Of a stretch of 57,339 nucleotides of DNA, positions 976-52,604 are shown in pieces. The DNA lies in IMG/VR virus record IMGVR_UViG_3300035659_000014, positions 1 to 57,339 of that record, one strand, 5' to 3'. Origin of the DNA: a virus. The translations under genes and the position numbers were made by a program. Every line of letters starts with the position of its first letter. Position 1 is the first letter of the stretch. The notes beneath the pieces are model-generated. The model made no database searches, was not told where the DNA came from, and saw only the letters and a list, made by a program, of their open reading frames with translations.

Positions 976-1620
976 TTAGATGTGCGCCCAACGTTGCCGG
1001 GCGGCAATTCGCCAGGCCGTCGCTGGGTGAATTCCAAAACTCGCACCGAGCGAATACGTTGACTCTCCGAGGCGCGCTCGTTCGCGCAATTCGTGGACTT
1101 GGGCCTCGGTCAACTTGCAGGACCATGAACGTGTTCCGCGCGGAGGGTTCGATCTGAAAGGTCGGCGATTTTCCAGCTGTTCTTTCGGCGTCGCCCACCG
1201 GCAATTTCCGGGCTCGTAATTTCCGTTGCTGTCGATCCGATCGAGGCTCATCCCGCTGGGCCGCTCGCCCATGTCGACCAGGAACGTCTCGAATCGTTCC
1301 CACTGCTCACAAACGGAGATCCCTCGCCCGCCGTAGTACTTAAAGCCCGGCGCGCGTGGATTCTTGCAACGCGACAGCATTGACGCCCACGAGCGATTCG
1401 CCCCGGTGCCGTACTGGCCGTGTCGAGTACTGAGCACCCTCATGGATTCACGACGAAGACAGCCGCACGACCGAAGGTTCCTGAGATTCTTTGCTGAAAG
1501 TGTCTTTTCGATTCCGCAATCACAACGGCAGCGCCACGATGAATGGCCGCCCGCCGCACCGACGCACGCCAGCACGAGCAGCCGTCCAAACCGATGCCCA
1601 ACAAGGTCCAGGATCTTCAT
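976..1620 (-). CDS. HNH/AP2-like homing endonuclease-type protein
   Basis: Likely site-specific DNA-binding or nicking protein of the phage HNH/AP2-like family. The N-terminal part has RFGRLLVL and a zinc-ribbon-like CRCDCG...SCGCL. The core is KYYGGRGISVCEQW, DMGERP, LDRIDSNGNYEPGNCRWAT and NRR, followed by a C-terminal helix-turn-helix-like segment (EAQVHELRERARLGESTYSLG). The ATG at 1620 overlaps the upstream nuclease stop as ATGA, so translation is probably coupled; a GTG at 1635 is an alternative. The gene sits exactly between the nuclease and recT, as expected of a homing gene that settled in an operon without breaking it. A second copy of the family lies at 39939-40460 on the other strand. 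Confidence 0.8.
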   Translation of the reverse strand: MKILDLVGHRFGRLLVLACVGAAGGHSSWRCRCDCGIEKTLSAKNLRNLRSCGCLRRESMRVLSTRHGQYGTGANRSWASMLSRCKNPRAPGFKYYGGRGISVCEQWERFETFLVDMGERPSGMSLDRIDSNGNYEPGNCRWATPKEQLENRRPFRSNPPRGTRSWSCKLTEAQVHELRERARLGESTYSLGASFGIHPATAWRIAARQRWAHI

Positions 1621-2420
1621 TTGCGCCAGCGGCACACCTCGAAGACGGGACAGTACTTAGAATGGCAAGTCGTCGAGCGTGGGTTCCCGTAGAAGAGTCC
1701 CTCGTGAATGAGCTTTGAGGCGTATTCGAGGACGCCCGGCGAGTCGGGGGTGCCGACGAGCAGGTCGCGCGCCATCGCGACTTCCCCCGTGCCGACACGC
1801 TGGCCCCTGGCGGTCTTGGCGACCTGCAGGCCGACGATCCGCGCCGGTTCCGTGATGGCGATCCCGGTCGCGTTCTCGGCCAGCAGTTCGTAGACGCCGA
1901 GCTGGGCGGCGGCGCCGGCCGTCTCGACGGTCCCATCGGCCCTGACCGCAGTCTTGCCGCTCTTGAGATCCGCGATGCCGTGTCCGTCGCCGATCTTGCG
2001 GATGCGATCCGTCTTGCCGCTGAGGATCAGCCCCAGGTCGCTGATCTCCAGCCGCTCGCACTTCACCTCGACGGCGACGTAGCCCTGCGTCGGGGCGATC
2101 TCTGTGCAGTAGCGGCCGTGGAGAGCTCGGCCGATGGACTCGGCTTCCTGCTGCCCCATGTCCTCGTCCCAGATCACGTCTTCCTCGGGCTTGTAGATGG
2201 CATCGACGAGCGCGCCGGCGCAATCGTCGGACTTCAGCCCGTCGCCTTTGATGAGTGAGTTGTCGAACACGGCCGTGCTCGCGTGCAGCGCCGTGCCGAG
2301 CTGCGCGTTGCCGCGGCGCGGGCAGCGCAGGTGCTTGATCTGACGCGCTTCGAAGCGGGCCGGGCAGTCGAGGAGATCGCCGATCGACGAGGCCCAGACC
2401 TTGATCGGAGTCCTACTCAT
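1617..2420 (-). CDS. PD-(D/E)XK exonuclease, RecB/Cas4-like
   Basis: 267 aa. Predicted exonuclease producing single strands for the RecT-like protein downstream. The N-terminus has the usual entry helix (IKVWASSIGDLLDCPARFEAR). The catalytic core is visible as GTALHAS, VEVKCER, GKTDRIRK and IADLKSGK, the last being the D-x(n)-(D/E)-x-K motif. The C-terminus CHSKYCPVFEVCRW looks like the iron-sulfur cysteine cluster of Cas4/AddB-type nucleases. The start overlaps the preceding small gene by 8 bp and the end overlaps the next gene as ATGA, so it belongs to the early operon. Biochemical polarity cannot be told from sequence. Confidence 0.85.
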   Translation of the reverse strand: MSRTPIKVWASSIGDLLDCPARFEARQIKHLRCPRRGNAQLGTALHASTAVFDNSLIKGDGLKSDDCAGALVDAIYKPEEDVIWDEDMGQQEAESIGRALHGRYCTEIAPTQGYVAVEVKCERLEISDLGLILSGKTDRIRKIGDGHGIADLKSGKTAVRADGTVETAGAAAQLGVYELLAENATGIAITEPARIVGLQVAKTARGQRVGTGEVAMARDLLVGTPDSPGVLEYASKLIHEGLFYGNPRSTTCHSKYCPVFEVCRWRK

Positions 2421-29694: not shown

Positions 29695-30055
29695 CGCGCG
29701 GCTTGACGATCTCGTTCAGGCCCGCCCGCTCGAGCAGCGCATCCTTGGTCGGCGCGTCGAGACGCATCTTGTTCTCTCGCGTGCACGCCGCCGGCTCGGC
29801 GCCGTCGAGAATCCCGATCCAGGACGCAACGACGTAGTCGACCAGGTCGTCGGTGACGGCCGCCCAATCGGTGACATCTTGCATCGCGCGGGTGCGCCGG
29901 TCCGGTTCCTTGCGTGTATGCAGCCGGACGATCTCGCGGTGCTTCTCGGTCGTCAGCGGGCGCAACGTGTACGTCGTGTCGGGGTCGCCACCCGACAGCA
30001 ACTCGGAATCCTTCGCCGTGATCGTGATTGTCGGATCGATGAGTCGCTTCGCCAT
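29654..30055 (-). CDS. Tail assembly chaperone
   Basis: 133 aa from ATG 30055 (TGGGAGGTAACG upstream). MAKRLIDPTITITAKDSELL and YTLRPLTTEKHREIVRLHT, then helices (DDLVDYVVASWIGIL). It is located between the tail tube and the tape measure. In the overlap with the next frame, the codons TCG TTT CGC offer a TTT-C slip for a +1 shift. Confidence 0.65.
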   Translation of the reverse strand: MAKRLIDPTITITAKDSELLSGGDPDTTYTLRPLTTEKHREIVRLHTRKEPDRRTRAMQDVTDWAAVTDDLVDYVVASWIGILDGAEPAACTRENKMRLDAPTKDALLERAGLNEIVKPRDAEDREASFRQSA

Positions 30056-30115
30056 CGTTACCTCCCATGCGGCGCGGGCCGATCTCACTCGGCACCGCGC
30101 CTCCCTCCGTCGTAG

Positions 30116-30191
30116 TGGTAGCGGGCGCAGGAATTGAACCTGCCGTAAGACGGGTATGAGCCGTCCATGTCCACCAGTTCATCTGCCCGCG
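30116..30191 (-). tRNA. tRNA-Met (anticodon CAT)
   Basis: 76 nt including encoded CCA. Anticodon arm GACGG-CTCATAC-CCGTC, variable loop TTACG, T arm GCAGG-TTCAATT-CCTGC, acceptor CGCGGGC with GCCCGCT: six pairs plus a C1-U72 mismatch, A73. A 1:72 mismatch is a hallmark of initiator tRNA, but the anticodon stem lacks three consecutive G-C pairs and position 8 is not U. It lies between tail tube and chaperone on the late strand. It could also be a CAU-Ile tRNA after lysidine modification. Confidence 0.8.
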
Positions 30192-30197
30192 GTTGCC

Positions 30198-31256
30198 CTA
30201 GAACGCGATCAGCGAGTTCGTCATGATGCGCGTCAGGCGCATCGGCCGCAGGAACGTCATGTTCGTCGGCGTCGTCGCGGCGAGGTACGCCTTGAAGGTC
30301 GCCTTCGGCTTGACCTGGGCCGCGCCCGCCTGTGCCGCATCGAAGGCCGTCAGGATCAAGCACGGGAACTCGTACAGCTTCATGTACTGATCCGCGCTGT
30401 TGATGTTGGCGCCCTTGAACGTGAGGTCGCCCTTCCATGCTTGACTTGCCTGCAGCCCGATATACAGGCTGTTCGCTGTGACGGTGTTCATGCGCGGGTA
30501 GGTGACATCGACGCTGATGCCCAGGAACCCGTTGTCGGCCGGTTCATCGATGACCTCCTGGCCGCTCACGCTCGGCTTGTCCATGACCCGAGCGAGGGCC
30601 AGCTTCAGCGTCTCGTACTTCACCCCCGAGGCCGGGACCAGCGAGGTGCCCACCTGCGGGTTCATGCGAAACGTGGCGTGCTTCCGGAAGATGCGATTGG
30701 TCTGCGCGAGGAACACGGCGCCGCCAATCGTCGAGTTGATGTTGACGCTCGAGGTCACGGTCGGGCGCGTGCCGAGCACCTTGTAACTCGTCAGGATCCG
30801 CCCGCCGTCGCCGTCACCTTCCTCGAATCCGTAGACCTTCGCGGAGGTGAGCTCCTCGACGAAGTAGAGCTTGTCCTGCGCGAGCGTGATGCCGAGGCCA
30901 TCGATCACGTCGGCCAGGTCGATCACGTGCTTCCACGAGGTTACCTGCGATCCGACGCTTGACGAGATCGTGACAGCGTTCGGCGAACCCATCGCAAGCG
31001 CGTCGAAGATGAACAGGTTGTCGTCGTACCGCGCCTGCGCCGACAGCACGAGATCCGGCGGCTCGTAGTCGCCGACTTCCGGCTGGCCCAGGAACGACTG
31101 CCCGAAGGCGTCGTCTTCGACCATCTTGGGCTGGAGCTTCAACCCGCCGTCGGAGGAAAAGAACACCCCCATGGTGACGCTGGCGGGCACGTTCCAGGAG
31201 TTCGTGGCGTACTTCGCAAACGCCATCTTCACGCTTTTCCCGGTGAGTCCAATCAT
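30198..31256 (-). CDS. Major tail tube protein
   Basis: 352 aa. Beta-rich (SWNVPASVTMGVFFSSDGG; PTVTSSVNINSTIGGAVFLA; GFLGISVDVTYPRMNTVTA) with PEVGDYEPPDLVLSAQARYD. Size, position before the chaperones and tape measure, and composition fit a tail tube subunit; I cannot name a family. Confidence 0.7.
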   Translation of the reverse strand: MIGLTGKSVKMAFAKYATNSWNVPASVTMGVFFSSDGGLKLQPKMVEDDAFGQSFLGQPEVGDYEPPDLVLSAQARYDDNLFIFDALAMGSPNAVTISSSVGSQVTSWKHVIDLADVIDGLGITLAQDKLYFVEELTSAKVYGFEEGDGDGGRILTSYKVLGTRPTVTSSVNINSTIGGAVFLAQTNRIFRKHATFRMNPQVGTSLVPASGVKYETLKLALARVMDKPSVSGQEVIDEPADNGFLGISVDVTYPRMNTVTANSLYIGLQASQAWKGDLTFKGANINSADQYMKLYEFPCLILTAFDAAQAGAAQVKPKATFKAYLAATTPTNMTFLRPMRLTRIMTNSLIAF

Positions 31257-45162: not shown

Positions 45163-45653
45163 TGCCCCTCCGGGGTTTTCAGCCCGCCATCCGGCAAGTA
45201 CCGGCCGCCGAAGACGACCGACGTGACGGCGATCGGGATCGAGCCGCCGCCCGGTCCGCCGATTTCAACGTGGTCGCGATACTTCTGCGGCTTCTCCGCT
45301 CTCAGTCGCGCCAGCAGAAGCATGTCCGAGTACTTTCTGACCGCTCCGCAGACCTTCCCCTGGTAGAACGCCGGCTCCAACCAGCCCTCAATCGCCCGTC
45401 GATCGGCTTCCCGCTCCAGCAGATCAGCCCGCTGCTCCCTGGCGTCCTCGAATGCCTTGACGTAGGCAGCATCCACCTCCAGCCAGTTGTAGTGCGTGCG
45501 CCGGCCGATTTTCGCTTTGAGACTCGCGTGGTAGACCGTGCCCTCCAGCATGTAGGCATCAAGGAATGCCCGCTGCAGATTTTCGGTGGTAGGTGGTTCG
45601 TGTGCCACGGAATGCGCCGTCACACGCCGAGCAGATTTCTTGCGCGTCGTCAC
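45159..45653 (-). CDS. terS: Terminase small subunit-like DNA-binding protein
   Basis: 164 aa from GTG 45653. Basic N-terminus, then a helix-turn-helix-like region (NLQRAFLDAYMLEGTVYHAS, IGRRTHYNWLEVDAAYVKA) and a helical oligomerisation part (ADLLEREADRRAIEGWL). Recognises phage DNA for packaging. No ribosome site; a -10 hexamer ends 7 nt before the GTG, suggesting a leaderless late transcript. Confidence 0.8.
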   Translation of the reverse strand: MTTRKKSARRVTAHSVAHEPPTTENLQRAFLDAYMLEGTVYHASLKAKIGRRTHYNWLEVDAAYVKAFEDAREQRADLLEREADRRAIEGWLEPAFYQGKVCGAVRKYSDMLLLARLRAEKPQKYRDHVEIGGPGGGSIPIAVTSVVFGGRYLPDGGLKTPEGQ

Positions 45654-48632: not shown

Positions 48633-49489
48633 TCTCGTACCCTCAGATCCGCCGGCCATTCAGTCGGATCCGCCCCCTTGCCCGTAATCGTTCTGAAAAT
48701 TCTGTCGCGCTCGGCGATGCCATCACGGACGGGGTTTGCCCCAAGTTGTTTTACGTACACTGACACGCCCGCCGCTTGGCACTGCTGGATGATGCTGCGA
48801 ATCCAAGCCGTGTCGCAAGGCCGCGCCTTTGGGCCCGATTCACCTCCAACGATCACGCCGTCGAGATGTTCATTCGGAACTTGGACTGGCACGACGTCGC
48901 CGTGTCGATCGCGCTCGCCCTCGCAATGCCACCCCCGAAGCCAGCCAGAAGACGAATGAACATCGCCGTCAAGATCCACCGGTTCAAGTAGCGGCTCGAG
49001 ACTTGCGATGCGCTTCGCCGCCGGCGTCTCGAGTAGCAGCGGCACGAACAGGTTGGCATCCGCCTGCGTCGAACAGGACACGCCGAGCGTCAGATTTCTG
49101 GGCATCGGAAACGCCGAGGTCCATATCTCTGCAAACCCGCGCGCCCGTCCCGGCCGCTTCGTCAAAACGATGTATTCGTGTTGCGGCGCCGACGTGCTGA
49201 TGGTCACGAAGACATCGTTGACGAACGCGAACGGCACGTCCTCGTGAAACAAATCGCCCATACTGCACACCAAGACGCGCCGCGGCTTTCTCCAGCCGCA
49301 GGGCAGAGCGAGCCGATCCATGTGCAGCACGATCTCCGAAAAGTCGCGGCCCTTCCACGATCCCATGCCGCGACGCGCGAAGGCCCGGGCGTAGCAGTGC
49401 TTGCAGCCCTCGGCAACCGGCGTACACCCATTCACCGGGTTCCAACTCGCCCCACCGTCCAGCCATTCGATCGCGCTCTTGTCGCTCAT
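48620..49489 (-). CDS. DUF5131 / phage Gp37-Gp68 family protein
   Basis: 289 aa. SAIEWLDGGASWNPVNGCTPVAEGCKHCYA is the family signature with the C-x7-C-x2-C-like cluster; VLVCSMGDLFHEDVP, GVSCSTQADANLFVP and VIVGGESGPKARPCD follow. Probably a radical-SAM-like or iron-sulfur protein acting on nucleic acid; substrate unknown. Site GGGGAGGGGAC. Confidence 0.85.
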   Translation of the reverse strand: MSDKSAIEWLDGGASWNPVNGCTPVAEGCKHCYARAFARRGMGSWKGRDFSEIVLHMDRLALPCGWRKPRRVLVCSMGDLFHEDVPFAFVNDVFVTISTSAPQHEYIVLTKRPGRARGFAEIWTSAFPMPRNLTLGVSCSTQADANLFVPLLLETPAAKRIASLEPLLEPVDLDGDVHSSSGWLRGWHCEGERDRHGDVVPVQVPNEHLDGVIVGGESGPKARPCDTAWIRSIIQQCQAAGVSVYVKQLGANPVRDGIAERDRIFRTITGKGADPTEWPADLRVREWHS

Positions 49490-50469
49490 GTCCCCTCCCC
49501 GACGAATCGCACGCCGGCGCCGGGCTTCACGGCCTTGACCGCGGCGGCCAGTTGCAAGGCGTAGTGCTTCTGAATCCAGTCGGTCAATGGAGCTGGGCCG
49601 CGCACCGTAATCAGCCCGTCCTCTTCGGCTTCAAGGACACAGGGGCGGAAGTAGGTCTGGATCGTCAGCGTGTTCATGCCGTCCGATGCAGCGATTTTCT
49701 CGACGATACGAGACCAGGTGTCGTTCCTGGGAGCGGGCGGCTTGAACTTGGCCGCCATCGCTGCGATTGAATCCCAATCTTTCACGAAGACCTCCAACTT
49801 ATGCCCGCATTTCAACCAAAAGTCATGCTTGGCCGAGAAGAACACATCGATCCTCTCGCGGACCACATCGACCCCAAATTCCTTCACGAGTTGCTTGATA
49901 GCGCCAGAACGGTCCTTCGTGATTCTGGGATTCTGCCCGTATCTCGTCTTGAAGCACTCGCAGAATCGGGCAATGGCGGGTTGGGCACTGTCGGCGCCCG
50001 CCGAAGGCGGTACGTACGTCTTCCCTTCTCTTAAGTTCTCTTGAGTTCTCTTAAGGATGGTGTCCGGGAGTATCCCGGAGTTTCCCGGATTCTCCGGGAT
50101 AAGGTCTGCCGGCGGCGCAGCGAACCGAGATTGTTCGCCCCGGCGGTCCTTTCGTAGCCCTGGCTGGCCATCGTCGAATTTTAAAATCTGGATGACGATG
50201 CCTTCGCCAGCCGGATAGCGCAAAATGAGCCCAGCGAGACGCATGGCTTCGAGCGCCGCCTCGAACTCTTGTTCTGTTCGCCGCGCGGTCGGCCAGATCG
50301 CGTACTTCACGCCGTACGCGTCCCCAGCCAGCCGTCCGAACACATCGCTGTTGGTGATCAGCATCGGATAAAGCACCTGTGCGAACTCCCCGATCTTCGG
50401 CATCGCGCCAAGCGCTGCGAACTTGCGTGAACTGCCGAGCGTCCGCAGAACGATGCGACCTTGCGCCAT
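49486..50469 (-). CDS. Replication initiator with DnaA-N-like C-terminal domain
   Basis: 327 aa. N-terminal winged-helix-like part (KIGEFAQVLYPMLITNSDVF, EFEAALEAMRLAGLILRYP), a central linker, a helical middle (SGAIKQLVKEFGVDVVRERID) and a C-terminus DTWSRIVEKIAASDGM...TYFRPCVLEAEEDGLITVR...WIQKHYALQL resembling the DnaA domain I helicase-interaction module. The linker DNA carries ten-bp iterons, as in the lambda O gene. It likely binds the origin and recruits host helicase. Confidence 0.75.
   Translation of the reverse strand: MAQGRIVLRTLGSSRKFAALGAMPKIGEFAQVLYPMLITNSDVFGRLAGDAYGVKYAIWPTARRTEQEFEAALEAMRLAGLILRYPAGEGIVIQILKFDDGQPGLRKDRRGEQSRFAAPPADLIPENPGNSGILPDTILKRTQENLREGKTYVPPSAGADSAQPAIARFCECFKTRYGQNPRITKDRSGAIKQLVKEFGVDVVRERIDVFFSAKHDFWLKCGHKLEVFVKDWDSIAAMAAKFKPPAPRNDTWSRIVEKIAASDGMNTLTIQTYFRPCVLEAEEDGLITVRGPAPLTDWIQKHYALQLAAAVKAVKPGAGVRFVGEGT
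50026..50101. repeat. 10-bp iteron array, candidate replication origin
   Basis: Three tandem TTCTCTTRAG units (50026-50055), then, six bases on, four quasi-units TCCGGGAGTA, TCCCGGAGTT, TCCCGGATTC, TCCGGGATAA (50062-50101). All are spaced by 10 bp, about one helical turn, inside the initiator gene. The first group is AT-richer than the surroundings and could assist melting. Confidence 0.75.
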
Positions 50470-51860: not shown

Positions 51861-52604
51861 CTACACAAAGCAGTACCCGCTATCACACAACCCCGTGAAC
51901 AGGTCTGGTTCATCGTCGCCTGTCCAGTCCCGCAACGGGACGCGCCTTCTTGTCAGCCACAGATCGTCGTCTTGTTCGCGGATCGCATCTTCAAGTTGTG
52001 CAGCCCGCTTAAAGTCGGTTGGATAGTCGTGCTGAAGTGCTGTCCACTCTGCCACCGTATGGTTTGGACACATCCAACAGCTTGATCGTGGCGGGTCGGG
52101 CCAACCCATCGAGTTGACCAGCGTCACACAGTCACGGCGTGTCATTCGCTTTTCGATGAGTGGATACCAGTTCTGCCACTTTCCGTCTTCGGGCTTCACG
52201 CGGCGGGACTCGTCAAGGCTGATGCCGATCCAGATCCGAAACTGCGTCGCCGGGTACTGTTCATTTGCCCACCGCTGCAAGACGCGCCGTTTCCACTTAT
52301 CGGAACAGAACGTCGGCAACTTCCCCGTACCTGTGAACGCCGGGATAAGTAGATCGCCGTTGCCTGCGTAGAGATCCACCGTCGCATACTGACTTTTGGG
52401 TATCCGATGGAGTGTCACGCCGACAGACGCCAGCGCGGGGACGATAACCACGTTGTGGTACTCCCAGGTGGCTGACGCCTCCCGTTCGGTGTCCACGATG
52501 GCTGCCAAGTCTGACTTGGGTAGATCGCCGCGCACGATTAGGGCGGCAATCGCCGCGCTCTGCGTACCGCCCCCCGAGGACCAGACTTGAACACGCTCAC
52601 TCAT
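51861..52604 (-). CDS. PAPS reductase-like PP-loop protein
   Basis: 247 aa. VQVWSSGGGTQSAAIAALIV (PP-loop SGGxxS), then TFCSDKWKRRVLQRW, IGISLDESRRVKP and SSCWMCPNHTVAEW. Phage members of the adenine nucleotide alpha-hydrolase superfamily are thought to act in sulfur or nucleotide metabolism or nucleic-acid modification; the exact reaction is unknown. ATGA-coupled to the acidic peptide upstream. Confidence 0.85.
   Translation of the reverse strand: MSERVQVWSSGGGTQSAAIAALIVRGDLPKSDLAAIVDTEREASATWEYHNVVIVPALASVGVTLHRIPKSQYATVDLYAGNGDLLIPAFTGTGKLPTFCSDKWKRRVLQRWANEQYPATQFRIWIGISLDESRRVKPEDGKWQNWYPLIEKRMTRRDCVTLVNSMGWPDPPRSSCWMCPNHTVAEWTALQHDYPTDFKRAAQLEDAIREQDDDLWLTRRRVPLRDWTGDDEPDLFTGLCDSGYCFV

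Follow-up and report, generated by a model that had tools for sequence, protein, structure and literature searches.

Phased 10-bp and 5-nt repeats in the linker codons of an initiator-like phage gene as a probable replication origin

The stretch of DNA analysed here (the window) is an IMG/VR virus record of 57,339 bp. Its minus strand carries an initiator-like gene of 327 aa (49486..50469), as derived from the ORF list, PHROG matches and an AlphaFold model. The gene product consists of an N-terminal winged-helix domain, a linker whose codons bear the repeats and a C-terminal domain. Downstream follow DUF5131, nuclease-like and methyltransferase-like genes and then terminase and portal. A recognisable DnaB or IstB/DnaC-type gene is not found in the window, and the contig may be a fragment. 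Upstream of the initiator lies a phosphoadenosine phosphosulfate reductase-like gene (51861-52604, minus strand, PHROG E 2e-30). An SbcC-like ATPase gene is located near one contig end (55399-57255, minus strand), an exonuclease-like gene near the opposite one (1617-2420, minus strand).

The N-terminal domain comprises residues about 10-100 (50170..50442, minus strand). It is modelled by AlphaFold with pLDDT >90 and shows the secondary-structure order H-H-E-H-H-E-E. Foldseek matches are winged helices of the ArsR/HlyU/CodY type, mostly transcription regulators. Pfam and NCBIfam offer no good model for this domain, and an AAA+ domain was not found in the window initiator. PHROG families termed 'replication initiation protein' are matched by 15/15 members of the protein profile A1, which represents the relatives of the N-terminal domain. 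The domain is the putative binder of the 10-bp units described below as part A.

The C-terminal domain (residues 249-325, 49495..49725, minus strand) is a putative helicase contact. The earlier note had described it as a DnaA domain I-like module, a claim that survives in weakened form. DnaA domain I (4tps) is among the top Foldseek matches, with weak E values of 0.03-0.13 and a TM score of about 0.45-0.52, and Pfam DnaA_N scores 16.4-19.2 bits, which is under the cut-off of 24.6. These two weak, partly independent hints suggest a faint resemblance to DnaA domain I. A BLAST comparison with residues 1-85 of E. coli DnaA (an approximate query) gives only 17% identity over 52 residues. The C-terminal domain has no relatives in the viral contigs and the phage collection and is therefore an orphan. 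Likewise, the full-length protein finds no relatives in the genome contigs, and the plasmid collection contains no relative of the N-terminal domain.

The repeat array spans 50,021-50,100 and falls into linker codons of the initiator-like gene (residues about 123-150). On the plus strand TTCTCTTAAG is located at 50026-50035 and 50046-50055 with TTCTCTTGAG in between (50036-50045). These are followed by TCCGGGA at 50063-50069, TCCCGGA at 50073-50079 and 50083-50089 and again TCCGGGA at 50093-50099. Each set proceeds in exact steps of 10 bp, and the offset between the sets is 17 bp. The three TTCTCTTRAG and four TCCSGGA repeats reported before, with their exact spacing and their position in linker codons, are thus borne out by the coordinates and by the shuffling test given below.

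Read on the gene strand from 50,100 down to 50,021, the array starts with ATCCCGGAGA ATCCGGGAAA CTCCGGGATA CTCCCGGACA, continues with the spacer CCATC and ends in a second tract. The four 10-bp units form part A (50061..50100, minus strand; family consensus TTCCSGGAAW) and are putative double-strand iterons, with TTCC and GGAA taking turns at 5-bp intervals. Part B (50021..50055, minus strand) consists of seven 5-nt steps, CTTAA GAGAA CTCAA GAGAA CTTAA GAGAA GGGAA. This purine-rich tract is a putative unwinding element, judged from its A+T content and from the GAA spacing in the family. Its A+T content is 65% vs 41% for the gene, and an equally AT-rich composition is seen in only 1% of the gene's 31-nt windows. 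By composition, part B hence provides an adjoining AT-rich region beside the repeats. The earlier proposal of two kinds of iterons holds for the TCCSGGA set; the TTCTCTTRAG set is better read as a strand-biased, AT-richer tract with a 5-nt step. The units at 50073-50099 alternate in their central C/G, such that part A as a single strand could fold into two perfect hairpins of 7 bp, each with a loop of 3 nt.

The self-match at lag 10 amounts to 45/66 at the array, which is the best value throughout the window among lags 5-30. The coding sequence was shuffled 20,000 times keeping protein sequence and codon usage. None of the synonymous shuffles reaches the observed value (mean 27.3, sd 3.1, maximum 41), hence the 10-bp phasing in the window is no by-product of the protein. 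Neither the 10-bp nor the 5-nt spacing is divisible by three; the 10-bp step is out of frame, so that the codon frame changes from one unit to the next. Three phased TTCCNGR units, a related pattern, occur 4 times in the window vs 0.26 expected, and each of these matches overlaps the array. The GC skew, suggested before as a check, falls steadily along the contig with no minimum at 50 kb and speaks neither for nor against an origin at this site. Owing to this monotonic fall it was discarded as an origin locator.

Searching with the whole protein yields one IMG/VR contig (41% over residues 1-150) and six Paenibacillus larvae phages (30%), whose proteins are annotated as DnaD-domain proteins. 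In the P. larvae phage Mock2, DnaC comes next after the DnaD-domain gene (29,908-30,690). Both the contig and the P. larvae phages exhibit the same two-part array at the equivalent place. The profile A1 retrieves 68 viral and 22 genome loci, the sources being Paenibacillus, Alicyclobacillus, Lihuaxuella, Melghirimyces, Acidobacteria, Gemmatimonadaceae, WOR-1, Methylovulum and an unclassified Pseudomonadota bin. In total, the protein-based search gave 79 non-redundant relatives, i.e. 80 loci with the window included. Most relatives share 28-48% identity with the N-terminal domain, the best one 58%.

The DNA pattern TCCSGGA(N3) x3 retrieves 38 stretches from IMG/VR, a raw count that may include chance matches over the collection. 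At least 19 of the 38 are located in replication-initiation genes, other initiator families included. These 19 comprise 14 of the window's family, the loci L014 and L020 (weaker phmmer matches) and L005, L015 and L024. Four of the latter five loci match PHROG replication-initiation families, while L015 corresponds to a PHROG of unknown function and was counted for its similar layout. All five belong to other initiator families sharing the 10-bp TCCSGGA part; the tracts following it are GGATT (5 nt), GGTCTT (6 nt), TAGATT (6 nt), GAAG-rich and pyrimidine. The pattern search has 14 viral contigs in common with the protein set, which is thus for the most part independent of the motif, but not entirely so. 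The viral contigs in the sample are fragments. As the sequences are related to one another, the family counts given here do not represent independent events.

The strongest lag-10 stretch of a locus falls within the linker in 59/80 loci with a strict boundary, where 2.5 are expected; with a slightly wider boundary the strongest 10-bp-periodic stretch lies in the linker in 65/80. The mean self-match of the relatives' linkers is 0.43 at lag 10 vs about 0.24-0.26 at neutral lags and is also raised at lags 5, 15, 20 and 30. In 49 of the 79 genes at most 2 out of 200 synonymous shuffles reach the best observed lag-10 stretch. Conservation in relatives had been named before as a point on which an array within the gene stands or falls. 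The array clearly withstands this check, and consensus scoring finds part A in 58/80 family genes (215 units, consensus TTCCSGGAAW). Conservation along the unit is, in percent, T84 T96 C95 C97 S92 G83 G86 A88 A75. Having been fitted to the consensus, this scoring describes the motif without testing it, whereas the lag-10 tests are free of any consensus. Across the family the units occur in all three codon frames.

Part B is found just downstream of part A in the relatives and is 70% purine. The spacing of GAA is exactly 5 nt in 398 of about 482 steps. Synonymous shuffles are exceeded at lag 10 in part A in 45/57 and at lag 5 in part B in 41/57. Thus, the expectation that the repeats go beyond codon needs applies to most family genes, and the spacing is under selection at the DNA level. 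One fixed phase between A and B is kept in 41/56; the phase in the window differs from that of the majority. Dozens of related viruses across several bacterial phyla share the two-part repeat code.

The array is not universal in the family, because L056, L058 and L059, with 53% identical N-terminal domains, show no array in the linker although DnaB follows the gene. A search of other regions in relatives that lack a linker array revealed a clear array outside the initiator only on the L058 contig (G002). Here a 10-bp-phased array of the TTCCGGGAAT type lies inside a small-terminase-like gene (L137, about 45,376-45,414), possibly a relocated origin or possibly chance. The linkers of L099 and L105 lack a TTCC array and carry 6-nt repeats of the GTTAAA/GAAGAA type at the equivalent position. 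The linker tracts of L134 (Streptomyces phage Austintatious gp39) and L132 (Moorella phage MCACPph1) are 7-nt GGGAACA and 6-nt TTCTCC. Regarding the gene neighbourhood, a DnaC-like or DnaB-like gene is located within 3.6 kb downstream, usually as the next ORF, in 39 of the 85 loci with enough sequence.

Several explanations other than an origin were considered. The linkers are rich in E, K, G and T, and the repeats might reflect nothing but the protein, namely low-complexity codons of a charged linker; simple tandem slippage might also come into play as some arrays (L115) are expanded by 30-bp units. However, neither the 10-bp nor the 5-nt step keeps the reading frame, and one DNA unit encodes different peptides (FPE, IPG, NSG). 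Moreover, synonymous shuffles fail to reproduce the periodicity, and the lags of 9, 12 or 18 bp expected from a protein repeat are weak. We consider this explanation very improbable, and the protein-repeat reading was discarded on account of the shuffles and the out-of-frame periods. A function as mRNA structure seems hardly credible. Part A of the window folds into its two 7-bp hairpins with z -3.1, and folding is strong for L042 (z -5.7), but the array-bearing L070 and L112 fold no better than shuffles (z +0.6 and +0.3), and there is no obvious reason why an RNA should require exact helical phasing. With the strong fold present in the window and L042 and absent in L070 and L112, this reading was discarded as well.

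The array could also be a recombination or packaging site, kept for the exchange of initiator modules. C-terminal halves vary among the relatives while N-terminal domain and array persist, and the array of the L058 contig resides in a small-terminase-like gene. Nevertheless, this terminase is a single instance, most loci have the array in a fixed place within initiator genes, and recombination by homology needs neither a 10-bp phase nor a fixed phase between A and B, which makes such a role highly unlikely. A winged-helix protein that binds repeats in its own gene could well autoregulate, and the Foldseek matches of the N-terminal domain are mostly transcription regulators. The arrays would then be an operator by which the protein represses its own operon, with no origin involved. 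Yet the array is located about 370 nt inside the gene, away from a promoter position. Replication is in keeping with the adjacent AT-richer 5-nt tract and with the DnaC/DnaB genes downstream in relatives, and the equivalent layout is an origin published for Tuc2009 (PMC8965321). An operator in place of an origin is therefore unlikely, but the two roles could coexist.

We conclude, from sequence evidence and by analogy, that the arrays of the window probably (roughly 85%) represent a phage replication origin embedded in the gene of its own initiator (replisome organiser), where it occupies the linker codons. The ori-lambda parallel drawn in the earlier note, an iteron array within the initiator gene, gains support from the conservation of the array and its similar position in the gene. 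Protein binding, strand opening and helicase recruitment are modelled on ori-lambda and Tuc2009. Part A would be the double-stranded platform onto which the N-terminal winged-helix domain loads, its units being presented once per helical turn. The domains would load one per turn; one per 5-bp half-site is also conceivable given the 5-bp alternation of TTCC and GGAA. Loading would strain the duplex such that the adjacent part B, being purine-rich, AT-richer and strand-biased, opens. The C-terminal part of the initiator would then bring in the helicase, in many relatives by way of a separate DnaC or DnaB. E. coli DnaA domain I binds DnaB (PMC6127211), and direct recruitment of the helicase by the C-terminal domain is thus possible in the window.

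A further-reaching view, that part B is the phage counterpart of the DnaA-trio and that the pair of A and B represents a general two-part origin code, is tentative and in our opinion rather doubtful. Initiator subunits nucleated on the 10-bp array would engage one strand of the opening duplex along the strand-specific 5-nt steps. As a general code it would extend to phage initiators that look unrelated, with the pentad varying (GAA, AGGW, GGATT) and the step of 5 to 6 nt being retained.

Most phage origins have yet to be mapped. A motif of phased TTCCSGGAAW with a 5-nt tract behind it can be searched for in sequences alone and would locate origins in many phages of Bacillota, Acidobacteriota, Gemmatimonadota and other groups. 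Because the putative origin consists of out-of-frame repeats inside a gene, synonymous recoding would cleanly separate it from the function of the protein. The motif also makes a mechanistic question testable with a small synthetic array, namely whether a winged-helix initiator that is not AAA+ opens DNA by stepping along short strand-specific repeats. The alternating nTTCn/nGAAn pentads of part A bear a possible resemblance to the heat-shock element, which is read by a winged-helix factor.

Lactococcal P335 phages are closest in layout. The GenBank note for Tuc2009 Rep states that it contains the origin, and according to a review of the field in PMC8965321 the proteins of Tuc2009 and TP901-1 bind direct repeats inside their own genes, which serve as ori. 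In Tuc2009 Rep (Rep2009/ORF16), four CAACCA are spaced exactly 11 bp apart and followed by AGGW in 5-nt steps; in r1t ORF11, GGAACC is repeated every 11 bp ahead of a 5-nt GATAA/GAATA/GATTA tract. Like the window family, both have linker codons that contain iterons at helical spacing and, behind them, a 5-nt tract. They differ in the iterons (CAACCA or GGAACC at 11 bp as opposed to TTCCSGGAAW at 10 bp) and in the tract (AGGW/GATWA as opposed to GAA). The N-terminal domain of Tuc2009 Rep aligns to the window family with an hhalign E of 1.4e-5 and a probability of 80%. TP901-1 ORF13 shows neither 10/11-bp nor 5-nt phasing and only a 15-bp repeat, thus the two-part layout is not universal among proven origins.

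Ori-lambda within gene O similarly combines linker iterons in the initiator gene with a following AT-rich, strand-biased stretch (PMC5043065). Its iterons start at nt 349 of O, the array of the window at about nt 370 of the gene. In contrast to the 10-bp units, lambda iterons are 18 bp long and spaced by 20-24 bp, and lambda O shows no 10-bp or 5-nt phasing beyond shuffles. The N-terminal origin-binding domain of lambda O has no detectable homology to the window family (hhalign probability 0.1, E 0.72). SPP1 oriL in gene 38 is alike by description, with direct repeats and an AT-rich unwinding element within the gene of the origin-binding protein (PMC6316719). Two separate stretches of TCCSGGA arrays (L028 and L037) are seen on one 58 kb contig (IMGVR_UViG_3300003690_000009), an arrangement that may be comparable to the pair of origins in SPP1.

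Origins of iteron plasmids and DnaA-trio unwinding modules, as described in PMC5043065 and PMC8287927, resemble the window in helically phased initiator sites beside an opening element made of short strand-specific repeats. They are located outside the initiator coding region, whereas the arrays of the window lie inside it. DnaA-trios proceed in 3-nt steps with an AAA+ reader, in contrast to 5-nt steps and an initiator in which no AAA+ domain was found. Literature on TTCCGGGAA in a phage-origin context was not found, and the conserved 10-bp/5-nt code appears to be a variant for which we found no description. An origin embedded in its initiator gene is of a known kind, as seen in ori-lambda, SPP1 oriL and Tuc2009.
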